Assembly (NCBI GenBank): GCA_016873255.1
Contig: VGXR01000030.1
Span: forward strand, 1 to 32,636
Direction: 5' to 3'
Origin: Planctomycetota bacterium
GTDB lineage: Bacteria; Planctomycetota; Phycisphaerae; Phycisphaerales; SM1A02
DNA: 32,636 bases
This document shows, one piece after another, positions 6,952-30,384 of the stretch. Below the pieces are notes generated by a model. The model had not been told where the DNA came from. It made no database searches and saw only the letters and a list, made by a program, of their open reading frames with translations. The translations under genes were made by a program, and so were the position numbers. The stretch's first letter is position 1; every line of letters starts with the position of its first letter.

Positions 6952-9475
6952 GACGGCGCTGCTGGCGCTGGCCGTGGTGCTCGCGAGCACGCTCGTGACG
7001 GCGGTGGCATGCGGCCTCGAGAGCGCGCGCGGCAACGCCGAGGCGAGCCTGCGCCGCTCGATCGGCGGCACCGACGCCAGGCTCGTGAACCGCTTCGGCG
7101 CGCCGTTCGAGGCGGCAGAGGCGGCGCGCGTGCGTGCGCTGCCCGGCGTGGACGCGGTGGGGACGAGCCTGGGCGGGTCGCTCTCGCTGGTGCGCGCCGA
7201 CGGGGGAACCGGCGACGACGGCAAGCCGCGGCGCACGGTGGCGCAGGTGCGCGGGCTCGATTCCGCGGGCGATCCCCGCTTCCGGATGCAGGAGATGCGC
7301 GAGGGGCGGCTGCCGGAGCGCGCGGGCGAGATCGCGATCGACCCGCTCACCGCCAAGGCGCTCGCCGTGGGCACCGGGGACCGGCTGCAGGTGCAGCGCT
7401 TCGGCGACCCGATCGACCTGTCGGTGACGGGCATCATCGACCGCGCGACGCTCGGCGCGCTGCAGCGGCCGTACGCGGTGGTCGACCGGGGGACGCTCGT
7501 CGAGGCGAACGGCAGCGACGAGGTCACGCAGGTGATGGTCGCGCTCGCGCCCGGCTCGGACGTGCAGGCCTGGATCCGCGAGCACGCGGCGGCGTTCGAG
7601 GAGCCGCTCTCGCTCGAGCCGAGCGAGCTCTACACCACGGGCTTCGACAAGCAGATGGATGCGCTGCGGCTCGGGTTCGTGCTGATCAGCGCGATCGCCT
7701 TCATGAGCTGCGCGTTCATCGTCGGGACCGGGATGACCACGGCCGTGGCGGAGCAGCAGAAGGCGCTGGCGGTGGCGCGGTGCGTGGGCGCGAGCCGAGC
7801 GCAGGTGTTCCTGAGCCAGGTGTGGGCGGGCGCGGCGCTCTGCGGCGCAGCGGGCATCGCGGGCGTGCCGTTCGGCGTCGGGCTCGCGGCGGCGCTGCGG
7901 TGGTGGTTCCGCGAGTGGCTGTCGGACGGGTTCTTCATGAGCTGGGAGGGCGCGGCGCTGGCCGTGGCCGGCAGCGTGATCGCGGGCGTCGGCGGCTCGC
8001 TCTGGCCCGCGTGGCAGGCCTCGCGCACGAGCCCGCTCGCGGCGCTCGCCCCGCAGGCACGGCCCCCGCGCCTGGCGTGGGTGTGGCGGCTCGGGGCGGT
8101 GGGCGCGGCGTGCCTGGCGGCGCAGGTGGCGCTGCTCGCGGTGCCGGGCTCGCAGGCGCGCTTCTGGACCTATGCGATCGCCGGCATCCCGCTCGTGCAC
8201 GCGGGGTGGTTCCTGCTCTCGGTGCCGGCGCTGTGGATCGCGGCGCGCGCCTTCGCAGGGCTCCTCGAGCGGGCGTTCCGCATCCCGCGCGGGCTGCTCT
8301 CGGGCGCCGTGCGCCAGGCGCCCTACCGGCTCGGGTTCACCGCCGGCGCGCTCATGGTGGGAGTCAGCATCCTCGCGAGCACGTGGACCAACGGCACGGC
8401 GGTCGTCCGCGACATCAGCGAGCGCGTGCGCTTCTCCGACGGGTTCGTCTTCAAGGCCAACGGCATGGCCGTCACCGAGCAGCTGCGGATCCGCGACCTG
8501 CCGGGCGTGCTGTCGACGGTGCCGATCGGCTACCTGCCGGTGAAGGTGATCGGGGAGACGGTCTTCGGCGTCGAGGGCGTGGCCGCGCCCAACGTGGTGT
8601 GCATCGGCTTCGCGCCCGACGAGTTCCTGCGCCTCAACCGGCTCGAGTGGATCGAGGGATCGGCCGATGCGGCGCTGCCCCGCCTCAAGGACGGAACCGG
8701 CATCCTGGTCGCGAAGGAGTTCCTCGTGGCGCGCGGCAAGAAGCCGGGCGACCGCATCCGGCTCGGCGGCGGCAAGACCGAGAAGGAGTACGAGATCGTC
8801 GGCGTGGTGGGCGCGGCCGGGCTGGACGTCGCGGTGCAGTACTTCGGCATCAGGAGCGTCTACACCGAGAACGCGGTGAGCTGCGTGTTCATGGACTTCC
8901 AGGAGGTCGCGGAGACCTTCGGGAGCCGCGAGGCGTTCATCCTGCAGGTCGACCTCGACGATGCCAGCCCGCCGGAGCTCGACGCGCAGCTCGCCGAGGC
9001 GGTCACCGACGCGGTGCCGGGCGCCGTGTACGCGAGCGGCCGCTCCATCCGGCAGGCGATCCTCTCCGTCGGCGACCGGGTGCTCGCGATCACCAGCTCG
9101 ATCGCCTTCGCCGCACTCGCGCTCGCGTGCTTCGGCGTCGGGAACGTGGTGGCGGCGAACATCGGCGCACGGCGGTTCGAGTACGGCGTGCTGCGCGCGA
9201 GCGGTGCGGCGCCGGGGCTCCTCGCGCGGCTCGTGCTCGGCGAGGTGCTGCTCCTCACGCTCGCCGGCGCCGTGGTCGGCACCGCGCTCGGGCTGCACCT
9301 TGCGCGCATGGGCGTGCTGTGGCACAAGGAGCTCGGCGGGCAGGAGATCGCCTTCGAGCCGCCCGTGCTCCCGCTCGCCGTCGGCTGGGCGGTGCTCACG
9401 GCGATGACGGTCGCGAGCGCCCTGCCCGCGGTGCGCGCCCTGATGCGCCGTTCGGTGCGCGAGCTCGTGAGCTAA
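6899..9475 (+). CDS. FtsX-fold ABC permease with two FtsX units
   Basis: 858 residues, about twice a LolC/E or MacB core, so probably a fused pair of FtsX units. A first membrane helix (about 19-40) is followed by a large periplasmic MacB-like domain. A three-helix FtsX block lies at about 256-375 (helix at LGFVLISAIAFMSCAFIVGT), with the conserved cytoplasmic segment EQQKALAVARCVGASRAQVF. Two further hydrophobic segments lie at about 397-450. A second periplasmic domain follows, and a second FtsX block with RRFEYGVLRASGAAPGLLA lies near the C-terminus. The start ATG lies inside the ATPase gene; it is the first in-frame Met and gives the usual short cytoplasmic N-terminus. Its TAA stop is also the first base triplet of the dispersed post-stop element. 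Confidence 0.88.
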   Translation: MRATWWFARRGLAARRGRTALLALAVVLASTLVTAVACGLESARGNAEASLRRSIGGTDARLVNRFGAPFEAAEAARVRALPGVDAVGTSLGGSLSLVRADGGTGDDGKPRRTVAQVRGLDSAGDPRFRMQEMREGRLPERAGEIAIDPLTAKALAVGTGDRLQVQRFGDPIDLSVTGIIDRATLGALQRPYAVVDRGTLVEANGSDEVTQVMVALAPGSDVQAWIREHAAAFEEPLSLEPSELYTTGFDKQMDALRLGFVLISAIAFMSCAFIVGTGMTTAVAEQQKALAVARCVGASRAQVFLSQVWAGAALCGAAGIAGVPFGVGLAAALRWWFREWLSDGFFMSWEGAALAVAGSVIAGVGGSLWPAWQASRTSPLAALAPQARPPRLAWVWRLGAVGAACLAAQVALLAVPGSQARFWTYAIAGIPLVHAGWFLLSVPALWIAARAFAGLLERAFRIPRGLLSGAVRQAPYRLGFTAGALMVGVSILASTWTNGTAVVRDISERVRFSDGFVFKANGMAVTEQLRIRDLPGVLSTVPIGYLPVKVIGETVFGVEGVAAPNVVCIGFAPDEFLRLNRLEWIEGSADAALPRLKDGTGILVAKEFLVARGKKPGDRIRLGGGKTEKEYEIVGVVGAAGLDVAVQYFGIRSVYTENAVSCVFMDFQEVAETFGSREAFILQVDLDDASPPELDAQLAEAVTDAVPGAVYASGRSIRQAILSVGDRVLAITSSIAFAALALACFGVGNVVAANIGARRFEYGVLRASGAAPGLLARLVLGEVLLLTLAGAVVGTALGLHLARMGVLWHKELGGQEIAFEPPVLPLAVGWAVLTAMTVASALPAVRALMRRSVRELVS

Positions 9476-9783
9476 ATCCGCTCCTGGTTCGTTTGGCACC
9501 AATTGATTTCACCGGAGAAATCGGGTGGTTGGGCTGACGCGTGGTGCGGTGCGGCGCGCCGGGACGCCTCGGCGACCGGCGGTGGCCTCAGTCGCTCGGA
9601 CACGTTGCACGCGACGGGCGCATCCGCGGCGAGGCGCGCGCGGCCGGGGCGTGCAGCAACTCGCTTGATGAGGCCACCGCCGGAACCACCGCGACCCGTC
9701 AACCTCCCGCCCGCCTCCAAAGCCCCCTCCACCGATTTCCCTGGAGAAAGCAACTGGTGCCAAACGAACCAGGGGCGGGTTCA
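9473..9783. repeat. 311-bp imperfect palindrome between convergent genes
   Basis: This stretch has no convincing gene. Its ends are two inverted copies of a repeat: 9483-9523 and 9733-9773 match at 36 of 41 positions, sharing the exact core CCTGGTTCGTTTGGCACCA. The similarity continues outward to include both stop codons (TAA of the permease, TGA of tsaC). Inside, a perfect 15-bp inverted repeat, CCGGCGGTGGCCTCA (9576-9590) with its complement at 9669-9683, and a looser GTTGCnnnCACGC pair share nearly the same centre (about 9628). Each arm also holds a small hairpin (GATTTC-ACCGGA-GAAATC in the left arm). The layout could be a MITE-like mobile element, a REP-doublet-like repeat, or a bidirectional terminator. 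It encodes no transposase. Confidence 0.9.
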
Positions 9784-10749
9784 GGCGGTGGCGCGGGTGA
9801 GGCGGTCGACCACCGCGCGCCAGAGGCCGTCGGAGCTCGGCGGCATCTCCACCAGGATCCGCGCGCAACCGAGGGTGTCCGCGGAGCGCAGCGCGTCGTA
9901 GAGCGCGCTGGCGTAGAGGCGCGCGTCGCGCGGCATGCCGATCGCCGTGTGCGGCGCGGGCACCTGCGCGGGATCGAAGCACAGCACGGCGCACGGACGC
10001 TGTTCCTTGGCAAGCGCCGCGGACACGCCGCTGGTGGGGACGCGGGCTGCCGGCGTGCGCGGTGCGTAGTGGCGGGCGGCGGTCCCGGGGCTTGCGCCCT
10101 GCTCGGTGATGGTCGGCGCATCCACCTCGCCGAGGATGGACCGCAGCGACTCCAGCGTCACCGTGCCCGGGCGCAGCAGCACCGGCCGCCGGCCGCTCAG
10201 GTCGAGCACGGTGCTTTCAAGCCCGAACTCGCTGCGGCCGCCGTCGATGACGATGAGGTCCCGCTCGCTGGCGAAGTCCTCGACGACGTGCCGCGCGACC
10301 GTGGGGCTGACATGCCCGCTGCGGTTGGCGCTGGGGGCGCTGATCGCCGCGCCGCCGAGTTCCTCCAGCAGCCTGCGCGCCACGGGGTGGCTCGGCGAGC
10401 GCACCGCGATGGTGTCCCGGCCGCCCACCGCCTCGGCCGGCACTCCCGGCCGCCGGCGCAACACCAGCGTCAGCGGCCCGGGCCACAGGCGCGAGGACAG
10501 CTCGTCGCAGCGCGGGTCCCAGTCGTCGACGAGCGCGCGCGCGGCGCGGCCGTCGAGGACGTGCGCGATCAGCGGGTTGTTCGAGGGGCGCCACTTGAGG
10601 CGGTAGACCTCCGAGATCCCGCGCGGGTCCAGGGTGAGCGCGCCCAGCCCGTACACGGTCTCCGTGGGGAACGCCACCGCGCGCCCCTCGCGCAGGGCCT
10701 GCGCGGCGACCTTCAGGGAGACGTTGCTTGGCTCAAGGACGCTCGGCAT
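9781..10749 (-). CDS. tsaC: Threonylcarbamoyl-AMP synthase, Sua5 type
   Basis: 322 residues. It makes threonylcarbamoyl-AMP from threonine, bicarbonate and ATP for the t6A37 modification of tRNAs reading ANN codons. The YrdC domain (about 10-205) shows FPTETVYGLGA, KWRPSNNPLI for substrate binding, SAPSANRSG and the strand GLESTVLDL. The following about 110 residues correspond to the Sua5 C-terminal domain, which makes this the long Sua5 form rather than the short TsaC form. The linker has GTAARHYAPRTP, typical of Sua5. The ATG lies 9 nt after the stop of the TolC-like gene, so the two are probably cotranscribed. The stop codon falls inside the right arm of the palindromic element. Confidence 0.94.
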   Translation of the reverse strand: MPSVLEPSNVSLKVAAQALREGRAVAFPTETVYGLGALTLDPRGISEVYRLKWRPSNNPLIAHVLDGRAARALVDDWDPRCDELSSRLWPGPLTLVLRRRPGVPAEAVGGRDTIAVRSPSHPVARRLLEELGGAAISAPSANRSGHVSPTVARHVVEDFASERDLIVIDGGRSEFGLESTVLDLSGRRPVLLRPGTVTLESLRSILGEVDAPTITEQGASPGTAARHYAPRTPAARVPTSGVSAALAKEQRPCAVLCFDPAQVPAPHTAIGMPRDARLYASALYDALRSADTLGCARILVEMPPSSDGLWRAVVDRLTRATA

Positions 10750-26423: not shown

Positions 26424-27149
26424 GTGGCCAAGCGCTTCGAACGAGTCGTCCTGAAGGTGAGCGGCGAGAGCCTCTCCAAGCCCGGTGAGCTGGGGATCGA
26501 CCCGGCGGAGCTGGGGCTGCTGGCCGACGAGATCGCGGATGCCTACCGCAAGGCCAGCCCGCTGCAGCTGGCGGTGGTGGTGGGCGGCGGCAACATCATC
26601 CGGGGCGCGCGGCTCGCCGAGACCGGGAAGGTCGACCAGTCGACCGCCGACTACATGGGCATGCTCGGCACGGTGATCAACGGCCTGGCGCTCAAGGAGG
26701 CGCTGGCGCACGTGGGCGTGGAGGCGCGCGTGATGAGCGCGATCAACCTGACGTCGGTGGCGGAGACCTTCATCCGCGCGCGCGCGCTGCGCCACATGGA
26801 GAAGGGGCGCGTGGTGATCCTCGTGGCCGGCACCGGCAACCCGTTCTTCACCACCGACACGTGCGCCAGCCTGCGCGGCATCGAGCTCGGCGCGCAGGCG
26901 GTCCTGAAGGCCACCAAGGTCGACGGCATCTACACGGCCGACCCGAAGAAGGACCCCAAGGCCACCCGCTATGCCAACCTGACCTTCGCCGAGGCCATCG
27001 AGAAGCAGCTGGCGGTGATGGACCTGACCGCGCTCACCATGTGCATGGAGCACGAGCTGCCGGTGGTGGTGTTCGACTTCCGCCACAAGGGCAACATCCA
27101 GCGCGTCCTCGAGGGCGACTCGTCCGTCGGGACCGTGGTCACGAACTGA
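26424..27149 (+). CDS. pyrH: UMP kinase
   Basis: 241 residues, standard length. It phosphorylates UMP to UDP in the cytoplasm and is of the amino-acid-kinase fold, unlike eukaryotic UMP kinases. FERVVLKVSGESL at the N-terminus is the phosphate loop. VVVGGGNIIRG, ADYMGMLGTVINGLAL, AGTGNPFFTTDTCASLRGIE and KATKVDGIYTADPKKDP are conserved. The start is GTG (reads VAKRFERV), set by the strong GGAGGA just upstream; the longer upstream open frame has no family similarity. frr follows after 14 nt, the usual order in bacteria. Confidence 0.96.
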   Translation: MAKRFERVVLKVSGESLSKPGELGIDPAELGLLADEIADAYRKASPLQLAVVVGGGNIIRGARLAETGKVDQSTADYMGMLGTVINGLALKEALAHVGVEARVMSAINLTSVAETFIRARALRHMEKGRVVILVAGTGNPFFTTDTCASLRGIELGAQAVLKATKVDGIYTADPKKDPKATRYANLTFAEAIEKQLAVMDLTALTMCMEHELPVVVFDFRHKGNIQRVLEGDSSVGTVVTN

Positions 27150-27163
27150 ACCGAAAGGGAGCC

Positions 27164-27730
27164 ATGGACATCGACACCGTCCTCCTCGAGACCGAGGACC
27201 GCATGAACACCAGCATCGACTACTACCAGCGCGAGCTGCGGGGCGTGCGCACGGGCCGCGCCACCACCGCGCTGGTGGAGTACGTGAAGGTCGACTACTA
27301 CGGCTCCAGCACCGACCTGCGCGAGCTCGCGGGCATCACGGTGGCCGACGCCACGACGCTGGTGGTCAAGCCCTTCGACCCGGGATCGAAGGGCGAGATC
27401 GTCAAGGCGATCGAGTCCTCGGGCATCGGCGTGCGGGCGGTGGCCGAGGGCAACGCGGTGCGCGTCAGCGTGCCCGCGCCCAGCTCCGACCGGCGGAAGC
27501 AGCTGGTCACGCAGGTGCGCAAGATGGCCGAGGAGTCGAAGGTGGTGGTGCGCAACGAGCGCCGCGACGCCAACAAGTCGATCGACGGGCTGCTCGCCGA
27601 CAAGAAGGCCGGCGTCACCGAGGACCAGGCCAAGGGCGCGAAGGAGTCGGTTGACGACCTGACCAAGCAGTACACGGCCAAGATCGACGCCCTGATGGAG
27701 AAGAAGGTCGCCGAGATCGAGGAGATCTGA
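27164..27730 (+). CDS. frr: Ribosome recycling factor
   Basis: 188 residues, close to the usual 185. With EF-G it splits post-termination ribosomes. ELRGVRTGRATTALVEYVKVDYYGSSTDLRELA is cut here into its conserved parts: RTGRA near the N-terminus, VDYYG, then the hinge VKPFDP. The C-terminal three-helix region includes RKQLVTQVRKMAEESKVVVR and NERRDANKSI. AAAGGGAG lies just before the ATG. It sits between pyrH and nrdR, 3 nt from the latter. Confidence 0.97.
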   Translation: MDIDTVLLETEDRMNTSIDYYQRELRGVRTGRATTALVEYVKVDYYGSSTDLRELAGITVADATTLVVKPFDPGSKGEIVKAIESSGIGVRAVAEGNAVRVSVPAPSSDRRKQLVTQVRKMAEESKVVVRNERRDANKSIDGLLADKKAGVTEDQAKGAKESVDDLTKQYTAKIDALMEKKVAEIEEI

Positions 27731-27733
27731 GCG

Positions 27734-28228
27734 GTGCACTGCCCCTACTGCGCGCGCGACAAGGACAAGGTGATCGACAGCCGCCCCAGCGACTCGGGCG
27801 ATGCCATCCGCCGGCGCCGCGAGTGCATCGCCTGCGGCAAGCGCTTCACCACCTACGAGCGCGTGGAGCGGACGGAGCGGCTGATGGTGGTGAAGCGCGA
27901 CGGCACGCGCGTGCCCTTCAACCCGGACAACATCATGCGCGGCATCTCGTCCGCCTGCGGCAAGCGGCCGGTGCCCGCAAGCGAGAAGGAGCGCGTGGTG
28001 CGCGAGGTCGAGGAGGAGATGCACCGCGAGTTCGAGCGCGAGGTGCCGAGCCGCGCCATCGGCAAGCGCGTGGCCGAGAAGCTCCGCTCGGTGGACCACA
28101 TCAGCTACATACGCTTCGCGAGCGAGTACTACCAGTTCAGCACGGTGGGCGAGATCCAGCGCGAGATCGACGACCTCGCCGACCGCCCCGCCCCGGCGCC
28201 GGGCCATCCGGACCTGTTCGGCTCGTAA
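27734..28228 (+). CDS. nrdR: Transcriptional repressor NrdR
   Basis: 164 residues. It represses ribonucleotide reductase genes in response to ATP/dATP. The zinc ribbon uses Cys3, Cys6, Cys31 and Cys34 (MHCPYC, ECIACGKR), followed by RFTTYERVE. The ATP-cone domain (about 47-138) has VVKRDGTRVPFNPDNIMRGI and ends with YIRFASEYYQF. The start is GTG, 3 nt after the frr stop. No NrdR-box-like palindrome was noticed in this window and no reductase gene is present. Its TAA stop is the first triplet of the third copy of the dispersed post-stop element. Confidence 0.97.
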   Translation: MHCPYCARDKDKVIDSRPSDSGDAIRRRRECIACGKRFTTYERVERTERLMVVKRDGTRVPFNPDNIMRGISSACGKRPVPASEKERVVREVEEEMHREFEREVPSRAIGKRVAEKLRSVDHISYIRFASEYYQFSTVGEIQREIDDLADRPAPAPGHPDLFGS

Positions 28229-28257
28229 ATCCGTTCCTGGTGAGTTTGGCACCAGTT
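28226..28257 (+). repeat. Third copy of the post-stop element, after nrdR
   Basis: Starting at the TAA stop of nrdR, 28 of 32 positions match the element that starts at the TAA stop of the permease (9473). Shared parts are TAAATCCG, CCTGGT and GTTTGGCACCA. Here CTGGTG and CACCAG form a perfect 6-bp stem with a 7-nt loop. No inverted partner copy follows within the 86-bp gap to thrS. Confidence 0.85.
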
Positions 28258-28299
28258 TCCCTCGGCGCGCGCCGCCGGCGGCGGCGTCACGGGTTTCGG

Positions 28300-28305
28300 T
28301 ACCCT
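28300..28305 (+). promoter_or_regulatory. Candidate -10 box for thrS
   Basis: TACCCT, 9 nt before the thrS ATG. With the post-stop element just upstream, it suggests that thrS starts its own transcript, without a leader or T-box-like control region. Confidence 0.38.
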
Positions 28306-28314
28306 CCCCCGACC

Positions 28315-30384
28315 ATGCCTCGGATCACGCTTCCCGACGGTTCCGTCAAGGAATTCGCCTCGCCCGTCACCGCCGCCGAGGTGGCCGCGAGCATCGGCGC
28401 GGGCCTCGCCAAGGCCGCGGTCGGTGCCAAGGTGGACGGCGAGCTGCGCGACCTCTCCGCGGTCCTCGACCGCGACTGCGCGCTGGCGATCGTCACTCCC
28501 AAGAAGCGCGAGGGCGGCGCCGACGCGGACGCGCTGTTCCTCATCCGCCACAGCACCGCGCACGTGATGGCCGAGGCCATCCAGAACCTGTTTCCGCACG
28601 TGAAGCTGGTCTACGGGCCGCCGCTCGAGACGGGCTTCTACTACGACATCAGCTTCGAGGGCGGCAAGGCGATCAGCACCGACGACTTCCCCGCGCTCGA
28701 GGCGGAGATGGCGCGGATCGTCGCGGAGAACCGTCCCTTCACGCGCTACGAGCTTCCCGCCGCCAAGGGCATGGAGAAGCTGCGGGCCGAGGGCAGCAAG
28801 TTCAAGGTCGACAACGCCGAGCGCGCGCAGGAGGCCGGCAGCACCACGCTCAGCTGGTACGCCACGGGCACCCCCGGCACCAACTGGGAGGACCTCTGCC
28901 GCGGCCCGCACGTCCCCTCCACCGGGAGGATCGGCGCGTTCAAGCTGACGAGCCTGGCGTCGAGCTACTGGAAGGGCGACGAGAGGCTCGACCGCCTCAC
29001 CCGCGTGTACGGCACCGCCTTCGCCACCAAGGAGGAGCTGGCCGCGCACCTGACGCAGCTCGACGAGGCGAAGAAGCGCGACCACCGCGTGCTCGGCAGG
29101 CAGCTGCGGCTCTTCCACATCGACGAGATGGTGGGCCAGGGGCTGATCCTGTGGACCCCCAACGGCAGCATCGTCCGCCAGGAGCTGCAGAACTTCATCA
29201 GCGACGAGCTGCGCAAGCAGGGCTACACGCAGGTCTTCACGCCGCACATCGGCAAGCTCGACCTCTACCGCACCAGCGGCCACTTCCCGTACTACCGCGA
29301 GAGCCAGTACCCGCCGATCATCGAGCACGACCAGCTGTCGATGCTCGCCAAGGAGGGCTGCACCTGCGGCGAGCTGGCCAACCGGCTGGAGAAGGGCGAG
29401 ATCGACGGCTACCTGCTGAAGCCGATGAACTGCCCGCACCACATCCGCATCTTCGCGAGCGCTCCCCACAGCTACCGCGACATGCCGGTGCGCCTCTCCG
29501 AGTTCGGCACCGTCTACCGCTGGGAGCAGTCGGGCGAGATCGGCGGCATGACGCGCGTCCGCGGCTTCACGCAGGACGACGCCCACCTCTTCTGCCGCGA
29601 GGACCAGGTGGCCGACGAGCTGCTCGGGTGCCTCAGCCTGGTCAAGCTCATCTTCGGCACGCTCGGCATGAACGAGTACCGCGTGCGCGTCGGCCTGCGC
29701 GACCCGGACAGCGCCAAGTACGTCGGCGACCCGAGGAACTGGGACAAGGCCGAGGAGGCCTGCCGCACCGCCGCGCGCACGCTCGGCGTGCCCTTCAGCG
29801 AGGAGCCCGGCGAGGCAGCGTTCTACGGGCCGAAGATCGACTTCGTGGTGAAGGACGTGATCGGCCGCAGCTGGCAGCTCGGCACGGTGCAGGTCGACTA
29901 CAACCTGCCGGAGCGCTTCGACCTGTCATACATCGGCGCGGACAACCAGCAACACCGGCCGGTGATGATCCACCGCGCGCCGTTCGGGAGCATGGAGCGC
30001 TTCGTGGGCTGCCTGATCGAGCACTTCGCGGGCGCATTCCCGCTGTGGCTTGCGCCCGAGCAGGTGCGCGTGCTGCCCATCAGCGAGAAGAGCGCTGCCT
30101 ACGCGCGCGAGCTGCACGCCGCGCTGCGGGCCGCGGGCCTGCGAGCCTCGCTCGACGAGTCGAACGACCGCATCCAGGGCAAGATCAAGGACGCGAGCGA
30201 CATGAAGGTGCCCTACTGCGCCGTCGTGGGCCCGCGCGATGCCGAGGGCCGCAAGGTGAGCGTGCGGGCGTTCGGCATCGAGGCCAACCTCGGCGAGGTC
30301 GGCTTCGACGCGTTCGTCGACGGCCTCGCGCGCGAGTACCGCTCGCGCGGCGCGGAGACCGTGCGGTCGGTGTTCGGAAAGTGA
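28315..30384 (+). CDS. thrS: Threonyl-tRNA synthetase
   Basis: 689 residues, longer than the about 640 of E. coli. It has a TGS domain (1-62) and an editing domain with the zinc-type motif His79-x3-His83 (HSTAH) plus Cys195 and His199 (CRGPHV), so serine-editing is likely intact. The class II catalytic core carries motif 1 around QNFISDELRKQGYTQVFTP, the zinc ligand Cys373 in KPMNCPHH, motif 2 FGTVYRWEQSGEIGGMTRVRGF and motif 3 MIHRAPFGSMERF. The C-terminal anticodon-binding domain ends in VFGK. Between SGHFPYY and KPMNC there are about 25 residues more than in E. coli, including CTC (Cys349, Cys351). MNCPHH has His where E. coli has Gly. Confidence 0.97.
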   Translation: MPRITLPDGSVKEFASPVTAAEVAASIGAGLAKAAVGAKVDGELRDLSAVLDRDCALAIVTPKKREGGADADALFLIRHSTAHVMAEAIQNLFPHVKLVYGPPLETGFYYDISFEGGKAISTDDFPALEAEMARIVAENRPFTRYELPAAKGMEKLRAEGSKFKVDNAERAQEAGSTTLSWYATGTPGTNWEDLCRGPHVPSTGRIGAFKLTSLASSYWKGDERLDRLTRVYGTAFATKEELAAHLTQLDEAKKRDHRVLGRQLRLFHIDEMVGQGLILWTPNGSIVRQELQNFISDELRKQGYTQVFTPHIGKLDLYRTSGHFPYYRESQYPPIIEHDQLSMLAKEGCTCGELANRLEKGEIDGYLLKPMNCPHHIRIFASAPHSYRDMPVRLSEFGTVYRWEQSGEIGGMTRVRGFTQDDAHLFCREDQVADELLGCLSLVKLIFGTLGMNEYRVRVGLRDPDSAKYVGDPRNWDKAEEACRTAARTLGVPFSEEPGEAAFYGPKIDFVVKDVIGRSWQLGTVQVDYNLPERFDLSYIGADNQQHRPVMIHRAPFGSMERFVGCLIEHFAGAFPLWLAPEQVRVLPISEKSAAYARELHAALRAAGLRASLDESNDRIQGKIKDASDMKVPYCAVVGPRDAEGRKVSVRAFGIEANLGEVGFDAFVDGLAREYRSRGAETVRSVFGK

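Follow-up and report, generated by a model that had tools for sequence, protein, structure and literature searches.

A dispersed palindromic element at the stop codons of convergent genes in a freshwater planctomycete, and its probable kinship with Y1 transposase-associated repeats

Results

A shared block at the ends of three genes

The DNA examined here (the window; 32,636 nucleotides, all of contig VGXR01000030.1 in assembly GCA_016873255.1) comes from a freshwater planctomycete, and three of its genes, encoding an ABC permease, TsaC and NrdR, end in nearly the same short block, which forms one arm of a hairpin element present in about 50 copies in the genome. This genome, hereafter G000, is a draft of 2.78 Mb in 152 contigs (97% complete), in which the window is contig C30; the nearest relatives of its nrdR are found in Phycisphaerales/Planctomycetota metagenome-assembled genomes. 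A preliminary description, made from the letters of the window, had reported near-identical blocks of about 32 nt aligned on the stop codons, and these were found at 9473 (+, TAA), 9783 (-, TGA) and 28226 (+, TAA). As claimed, 28 of 32 positions are identical between the nrdR and permease copies, and the same number between the tsaC and permease copies. Three exact copies of the motif CCTGGTNNGTTTGGCACCA are present in the window, at 9483+, 9755- and 28236+. Pfam searches agreed with the gene identities given earlier (FtsX/MacB permease, TsaC/Sua5 and NrdR) and placed a threonyl-tRNA-synthetase-type protein (thrS) downstream of nrdR. Gene strand and frame were assigned, here and throughout, by a small window-trained codon model applied to the 240 nt outside each arm; no annotation was used. 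The features at the two loci are as follows.

6974..9475, + strand: FtsX/MacB-type ABC permease gene ending on the left arm (codon model, Pfam)
9474..9782, unstranded: complete long element (309 bp) between the convergent permease and tsaC genes (inverted repeat, pair list)
9473..9519, + strand: left arm of the long element (profile E 2.1e-14; TAA 9473-9475 is the permease stop)
9559..9678, - strand: inner core hairpin (95% identity to a 120-nt query; outer-helix covariation across six genomes)
9737..9783, - strand: right arm of the long element (profile match 9737-9778, E 2.3e-12; TGA 9781-9783 is the tsaC stop)
9781..10749, - strand: tsaC/sua5 gene ending on the right arm (codon model, Pfam)
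27734..28228, + strand: nrdR gene ending on an arm (codon model, Pfam)
28226..28264, + strand: arm ending nrdR (pattern match; profile search E 2.6e-11; stop register 0)
28289..28297, - strand: putative decayed opposite end (ACGGGTTTC) of the nrdR-thrS element (by eye, against complete elements of the congeners G012 and G004 at the orthologous junction)

The TAA stop of nrdR (28226-28228) overlaps the first bases of the arm, whose fixed sequence starts at 28227, and the decayed end directly precedes GGTACC.

A dispersed family of inverted pairs

The preliminary description would have been refuted by a lack of further matches, or by matches unrelated to stops. Neither was the case: a genome-wide motif search gave 80 matches in G000 at up to 3 mismatches against 8 with a reversed control (73 against 0 for the pattern at up to 2 mismatches), and their placement is strongly tied to stops. 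A chance origin of the block is ruled out by these counts, together with the 0.02 occurrences expected in the window at up to 3 mismatches. Columns were counted over 80 arms, obtained from 84 first-pass matches at up to 4 mismatches after removal of 4 judged unrelated. The consensus is approximately K-AAATCCGYTCCTGGTTNGTTTGGCACCAATTGNYTTCTCCRGAGAA, with no outside column reaching 60%; before the hairpin the arms read K-AAATCCGYTCC, and the preceding host base is T in 39, G in 34, C in 6 and A in none.

A profile of 48 columns, built from 45 of 78 arms hand-chosen to avoid near-duplicates, recovered 88 arms in G000 at a cut-off of E≤0.1, possibly a lower bound because 150 of 733 first-look candidates were scored. 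Of these, 64 form 32 complete inverted elements of 42-733 bp (15 of them 96-100 bp, 14 of them 178-733 bp). The other 24 are single, some being cut by contig ends, and two of the singles make up one element at the start of contig C12. The earlier view of a unit independent of the palindrome therefore holds locally at nrdR and fails genome-wide, and the probable decayed end beside nrdR, seen by eye in comparison with G012, also limits the reading of that copy as standing alone. Similarly, a fixed GTTTGG loop on a stem of varying length describes the three window copies and not other species, in which the whole arm is respelled; judged on sequence comparison, the loop is not conserved across species.

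Two further arrangements were noted. In G000:C6:52730-53321 (L033), two inverted arms surround a small open reading frame (ORF) whose sequence resembles a RidA-family protein. Partial arm ends of 10-20 nt stand in tandem at element edges in G000 (C5:15509, C22:29830, C9:21163, C27:15102) and G012 (L269), as if by slippage or repeated insertion.

Placement at gene ends and supply of stop codons

Genes read into 78 of the 88 arms, away from 7, and are undecided at 3; one arm has no flank and two have a weak coding signal. Convergent genes flank 27 of the 32 complete elements, 26 with above-threshold coding support on both sides, against a baseline of 52 convergent junctions among 321 in 400 kb of the congener G005 (median spacer 18.5 nt), an excess with a binomial P of 4e-17. 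The gene's stop codon lies at or inside the arm in 63 of the 78 flanks and within 9 nt before it in 9 more. Relative to the arm, stops fall at 0 in 37 flanks, +16 in 11, -1 in 8, +31 in 7, -5 in 4 and -3 in 3, with seven other single values and one flank in which no stop was found. Genes in frames 0 and 1 stop at the arm edge and those in frame 2 at an internal TAG (+16) or TGA (+31); therefore, the arm offers an edge stop in two frames and an internal stop in the third.

Stops at position 0 are TAA in 23 cases, TGA in 11 and TAG in 3, and the +16 stop was scored for 11 of 24 frame-2 genes versus 7 of 54 in the other frames (Fisher P 0.0024). Just outside the arm, frame-0 cases have T in 37 of 42, frame-1 cases have G in 11 of 12, and frame-2 cases have G or C in 23 of 24, the pattern expected of a host base. 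The first arm base has changed from A to G in 11 of 42 frame-0 cases, where TAA and TGA are synonymous, and in one case each among the 12 of frame 1 and the 24 of frame 2. The stops supplied by the arms behave as real stops.

Species-specific dialects among congeners

The genus set comprised 14 genomes including G000 (congeners G001, G004, G005, G008, G012 and others), all drafts, such that a missing mobile gene is weak evidence. The window-trained codon model was used unchanged on these congeners, and some of their flanks scored weakly. Across 100 relatives, the G000 pattern at up to 2 mismatches gave 32 matches in 28 genomes versus 35 with the reversed control, and among the matches of twelve relatives viewed, only that of G005 has arm context. 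A degenerate pattern, at up to 2 mismatches across the genus set, found 74 matches in G000, 43 in G012, 20 in G004, 1 in G005 and 1 doubtful in G008, with 0 in the other nine genomes and zero for the reversed control. Other congeners have spellings of their own: that of G005 gave 11 matches, with 2 in G000, and that of G001 gave 40, with 2 variants in G005. The two G005-dialect relics in the window's genome (L304 in contig C24 and L306 in contig C52) have stops at -1 and 0 of their arms.

Genes read into 12 of 15 flanks in G005, with stops at 0 in 7, +16 in 3 and -1 in 2. In G001, where 23 arms in fetched loci were examined out of 40 genome matches, 20 of 23 flanks are forward; their stops are less tightly placed, 19 of 20 falling within -15 to +16. 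The 20 flanks of G004 comprise 16 forward, 2 away and 2 weak. For G012 a looser pattern also caught dialect-a arms, and its 44 matches represent both dialects together (35 flanks forward, 4 away and 5 short). The +16 stop is used by genes in G012 (9), G004 (2), G005 (3) and G001 (3). This stop is spelled TAA by most G005 copies, some G001 copies and one G012 dialect; in the other G012 dialect TAA comes a base sooner, and TAC stands at +16 in most copies of G004.

The two arms of one copy resemble each other more closely than arms of different copies in G012 (0.971 versus 0.836; 0 of 2000 permutations), G001 (0.879 versus 0.802; 11 of 2000) and G004 (0.940 versus 0.913; 20 of 2000), and no such excess was seen in three G005 copies. 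In G000 the effect is weak (0.873 versus 0.853 over the core 19 nt, 24 of 2000 permutations; 567 of 2000 for the whole arm).

Filled and empty orthologous junctions

Four junctions carry elements in three species each: contig C29 of G000 with G012 L260 and G005 L298, C40 with G012 L277 and G004 L256, C5 with G012 L269 and G001 L320, and C37 with G012 L278 and G001 L328. The nrdR-thrS junction holds an element in G000, G012 and G004, with the same right boundary (before GTACCC) in all three, and is without one in L072 and in G005 (L302, with the same letters as L073). Because their nrdR-junction letters are the same, L065, L066 and L073 are probably the same genomes as G004 (L253), G012 (L274) and G005 (L302). 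Orthologous junctions at L290, L291 and L299 of G005 also lack the element. As read from the sequence, the G005 counterparts of the C18 and C46 junctions are empty, showing about 30 nt of spacer and an overlap of genes. Complete elements whose neighbours both end on a G000 element number 6 among 21 in G012 and 2 among 9 in G004. At assumed backgrounds of 0.10 to 0.20, the binomial P for this co-location is 0.014 to 0.23 in G012 and 0.23 to 0.56 in G004, a modest excess over chance that is suggestive, not strong. A truncated dialect-b arm beside a dialect-a element at G012 L267 looks, by its letters, like dialect replacement.

Core hairpin and folding

Long elements contain a core hairpin of about 86-112 nt with the near-invariant strands YCAAGCGAGTT and TGTCYGAGCGAC. 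It is also present in G012, G005, G013, G007 and, weakly, G001, with several copies in most of the six genus genomes; outside the genus, only short pieces were found, in four of the genomes searched. The core loci are as follows.

Window: 9559-9678
L188: 353-463 and 1497-1607
Further loci: L192, L199, L203, L189, L187 and L197

Among 26 distinct cores from the six genomes, 13 share an outer helix with two-sided changes at 6 of its 14 pairs and pairing in 99.5% of cells, covariation far above that of shuffled and slid controls. The core may act as a structured RNA or as a hairpin recognised at the DNA level. In G005 the two cores of L188 bracket (463-1495) a small gene pair resembling a HigB/HigA toxin-antitoxin module by sequence.

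Complete elements fold far better than shuffles, with z -11.8 in G000, -17.9 in G012 and -12.4 in G004 (three copies), and the solo nrdR copy folds little better (z -1.9; 7 of 200 shuffles as good). No intrinsic terminator was found at the nrdR arm in a scan of 27000-29000, and the arms end in UUU only. An Rfam search at gathering scores returned two tRNAs only from six sources and nothing from six further loci; a known Rfam family was rejected for want of a match in the loci scanned.

Y1 transposase genes within similar repeats

The Pfam family PF01797 matched 15 times, in 9 genomes of the 14 in the genus set; 12 of these matches lie at two junctions, folC/leuS in five genomes and beside gpmI in seven. 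At 8 of 9 Y1 loci examined, an ORF of 220-247 amino acids with histidine and tyrosine motifs lies inside inverted repeats of 28-43 nt; at L211 repeats were found and no ORF was seen by motif search. Most ends of these repeats begin TAAAT or TGAAAT, and at L206 (G001) repeats starting with GTAG supply TAG to both neighbours. In G005, the Y1 gene of L312 (Y1_Tnp in Pfam, E 1.8e-6) lies within repeats of the dispersed dialect of that genome, and both convergent neighbours end in TAA on an arm. A PDB sequence search with the L312 transposase returned nothing, and the G005 Y1 protein as query had no match in G000, G012, G009, G010 or G013. A Y1 transposase flanked by its own-family repeat was not found in the 97%-complete draft of G000.

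The folC/leuS junction of G008 retains 12 nt from the start of the repeat and no transposase gene, and looks from its sequence like a deletion scar; in G003, G009 and G010 this junction is short (TAAAT..TTA). Downstream of folC and gpmI in G000 and G012, where the identity of the partner gene was not checked, there was no Y1 match in the fetched loci and no arm was seen within 300 nt.

Apart from these subjects, near-perfect 18-bp tandem repeats lie at 253-374 of the window, within a predicted minus-strand gene.

Discussion

The block is probably the arm of a non-autonomous palindromic mobile element, an orphan relative of the repeats associated with RAYT/TIRYT transposases (Y1, HUH-type). The family consists of dispersed inverted pairs that have no match in most congeners, orthologous junctions exist without the element, and similarly built repeats enclose transposase genes in congeners. 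Among the possibilities raised in the preliminary description, that of a mobile-unit end supplying stop codons is favoured by this dispersal, the inverted pairing, the stop placement and the enclosed congener transposases. A Y1 transposase, now missing from G000 or unassembled, would have copied the element in trans as a folded single strand. With arms that start AAAT and often hold further stops, insertion at or beside the 3′ end of a gene would give a stop in nearly every frame on either strand, and copies would therefore survive almost only between convergent genes. Once inserted, the stop bases would evolve as true stop codons (TAA to TGA or TAG), and arms would drift together within a genome into species-specific spellings. 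A candidate effect on mRNA 3′ ends would be a by-product or later use.

Several observations weigh against this reading. PF01797 has no match in G000 and G012, the two genomes with the most degenerate-pattern matches. Of the three genomes in which flanking repeats were compared with dispersed copies, only G005 has one dialect for both; the flanking repeats of G001 (L206) and G004 (L207) are not the dispersed dialect, with no match at up to 5 mismatches. Neither a target-site duplication nor a fixed target was seen by eye in the flanks of the 32 pairs. When the element is removed and the flanks are joined, gene frames stay open for 111 nt at the median (59 flanks) and only 9 of 59 stop at 0 or -1; therefore, plain insertion into a spacer fails to explain the missing spacers. 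Element centres, moreover, are unique per copy in the first G012 dialect and in most complete G004 elements.

Elements dropped into overlaps of convergent genes were considered as an origin and rejected, since the run-on of the joined flanks leaves most copies unexplained. The likeness of arms within a copy, together with the unique centres, is the least explained part of the data. Near-identical arms around unique, sometimes native-terminator-like centres in the first G012 dialect and G004 are the basis for another proposal, namely that arms are caps written onto the 3′ end of each convergent gene around an existing spacer instead of one inserted unit. This is distinctly doubtful, and the same small credence is given to its fuller form, in which a resident, vertically inherited Y1 transposase respells the caps genome-wide. 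If it were true, the stop codons of many genes would be set by a selfish or domesticated element and would change together with the dialect.

A host-selected bidirectional terminator or 3′-end stabiliser at convergent genes, spread or homogenised as useful and mobile only secondarily, is unlikely as the explanation of the family. It would fit the 27 of 32 complete elements at convergent genes, the very stable hairpins of the three complete copies folded, the closer match of arms within copies in G012, G001 and G004, and the several junctions with elements in three species. However, there is no U-tract, the solo nrdR copy hardly exceeds shuffles (z -1.9), 9 of the 14 genus genomes have no degenerate-pattern match, and G005, over a 400-kb stretch in which 321 junctions were called, has just 8 own-dialect arms. 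Elements at L257 and L272, furthermore, enclose stretches that read like native terminators, which would make such a role redundant.

The terminal inverted repeats and the fixed short length class would also suit a conventional miniature inverted-repeat transposable element (MITE) of a DDE transposase, for example IS630/Tc1-like with a TA target, and the T|AA edges of frame-0 copies do resemble a TA junction. Yet the base before the arm is T in 39, G in 34, C in 6 and A in none, with G or C in 23 of 24 frame-2 cases, and therefore there is no TA duplication, and similar congener repeats enclose a Y1 gene; on these observations, made without a search for DDE families in G000, a DDE origin is very improbable. 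Neisserial DNA uptake sequences (DUS), which exist in dialects, provide the model for a sequence serving a DNA-binding or uptake system and accumulating by chance at gene ends. Species-specific dialects and inverted pairs at gene ends are shared with such sequences, but a total of only about 90 arms, a unit as long as 30-45 nt, complete forms of fixed length and transposase-bearing versions in congeners leave hardly any likelihood for this account.

If the family is the mobile element proposed, a tiny element can persist in a tightly packed genome by cleanly ending both neighbours in nearly any frame. The spellings of five species, the filled and empty orthologous junctions and the transposase genes at two recurring junctions form a natural series that allows direct tests of how RAYT-type transposases choose their targets and co-evolve with their repeats.

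Searches of open-licence PMC papers turned up no description of this repeat family. Bertels and Rainey in 2011 reportedly described REPINs and GTAG-tagged repetitive extragenic palindromes (REPs) with RAYT. Like REPINs, the G000 family has two inverted units in a fixed short hairpin (15 of 32 elements at 96-100 bp, one of which folds with z -11.8). Most G005-dialect copies seen have CGTC or TGTC directly before a CGGGG-TAA-CCCCG-like hairpin (the letters there include GGCGTC, GGTGTC, CGCATC, GGGAAC and others), a possible likeness to CGTC REPs; in contrast with CGTC REPs, at L312 repeats of this sort enclose a Y1 gene, and the CGTC tag is absent from the G000 family by column counts. According to Di Nocera et al. 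(2013), RAYT genes are flanked by long inverted repeats (TIRtrons) with dispersed repeat families, and REPs lie between convergent and tandem genes, their GTAG termini supplying TAG stops (PMC3733652). A further account places 20 of 26 TIRYTs in its subclass 2.1 (PMC6006769).

Bacterial MITEs such as RUP and the 155-bp Correia/NEMIS element are similar in their size of about 100-155 bp, their mostly intergenic location, and their possession of inverted repeats and of stops in every frame, and differ in their 5′-TA-3′ termini and target duplications, none of which was seen in the G000 family (PMC2229807). The congener loci, with a Y1 HUH gene within long inverted repeats, resemble TIRtrons and TIRYT repeats, and the terminal inverted repeats of TIRYTs are likewise described as moderately abundant dispersed repeats, often dimers, compared with 64 of 88 arms paired and 24 single in G000 (PMC3733652). 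Unlike TIRtrons as described there, the G000 family has no detected transposase, and its repeats begin at stops, mostly between convergent genes; repeats flanking a transposase, by which TIRtrons are defined, were found in the congener G005 (L312) and not in G000. With GTAG REPs and REPINs the family shares short palindromes, inverted doublets and a position downstream of convergent or tandem genes (PMC3733652). Unlike GTAG REPs, it has no GTAG tag (80 arms), its edge is TAA, TGA or TAG with an additional internal stop, and its convergent placement is near-exclusive. The G000 family thus works like RAYT/TIRYT repeats, short of proven membership, the defining transposase having been sought in G000 and not found. 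Stop supply and a preference for gene ends are already known for REPs (PMC3733652); what seems new is a matter of degree and design, namely stops for almost every frame, convergent placement that is near-exclusive, and the turnover of spelling between species.
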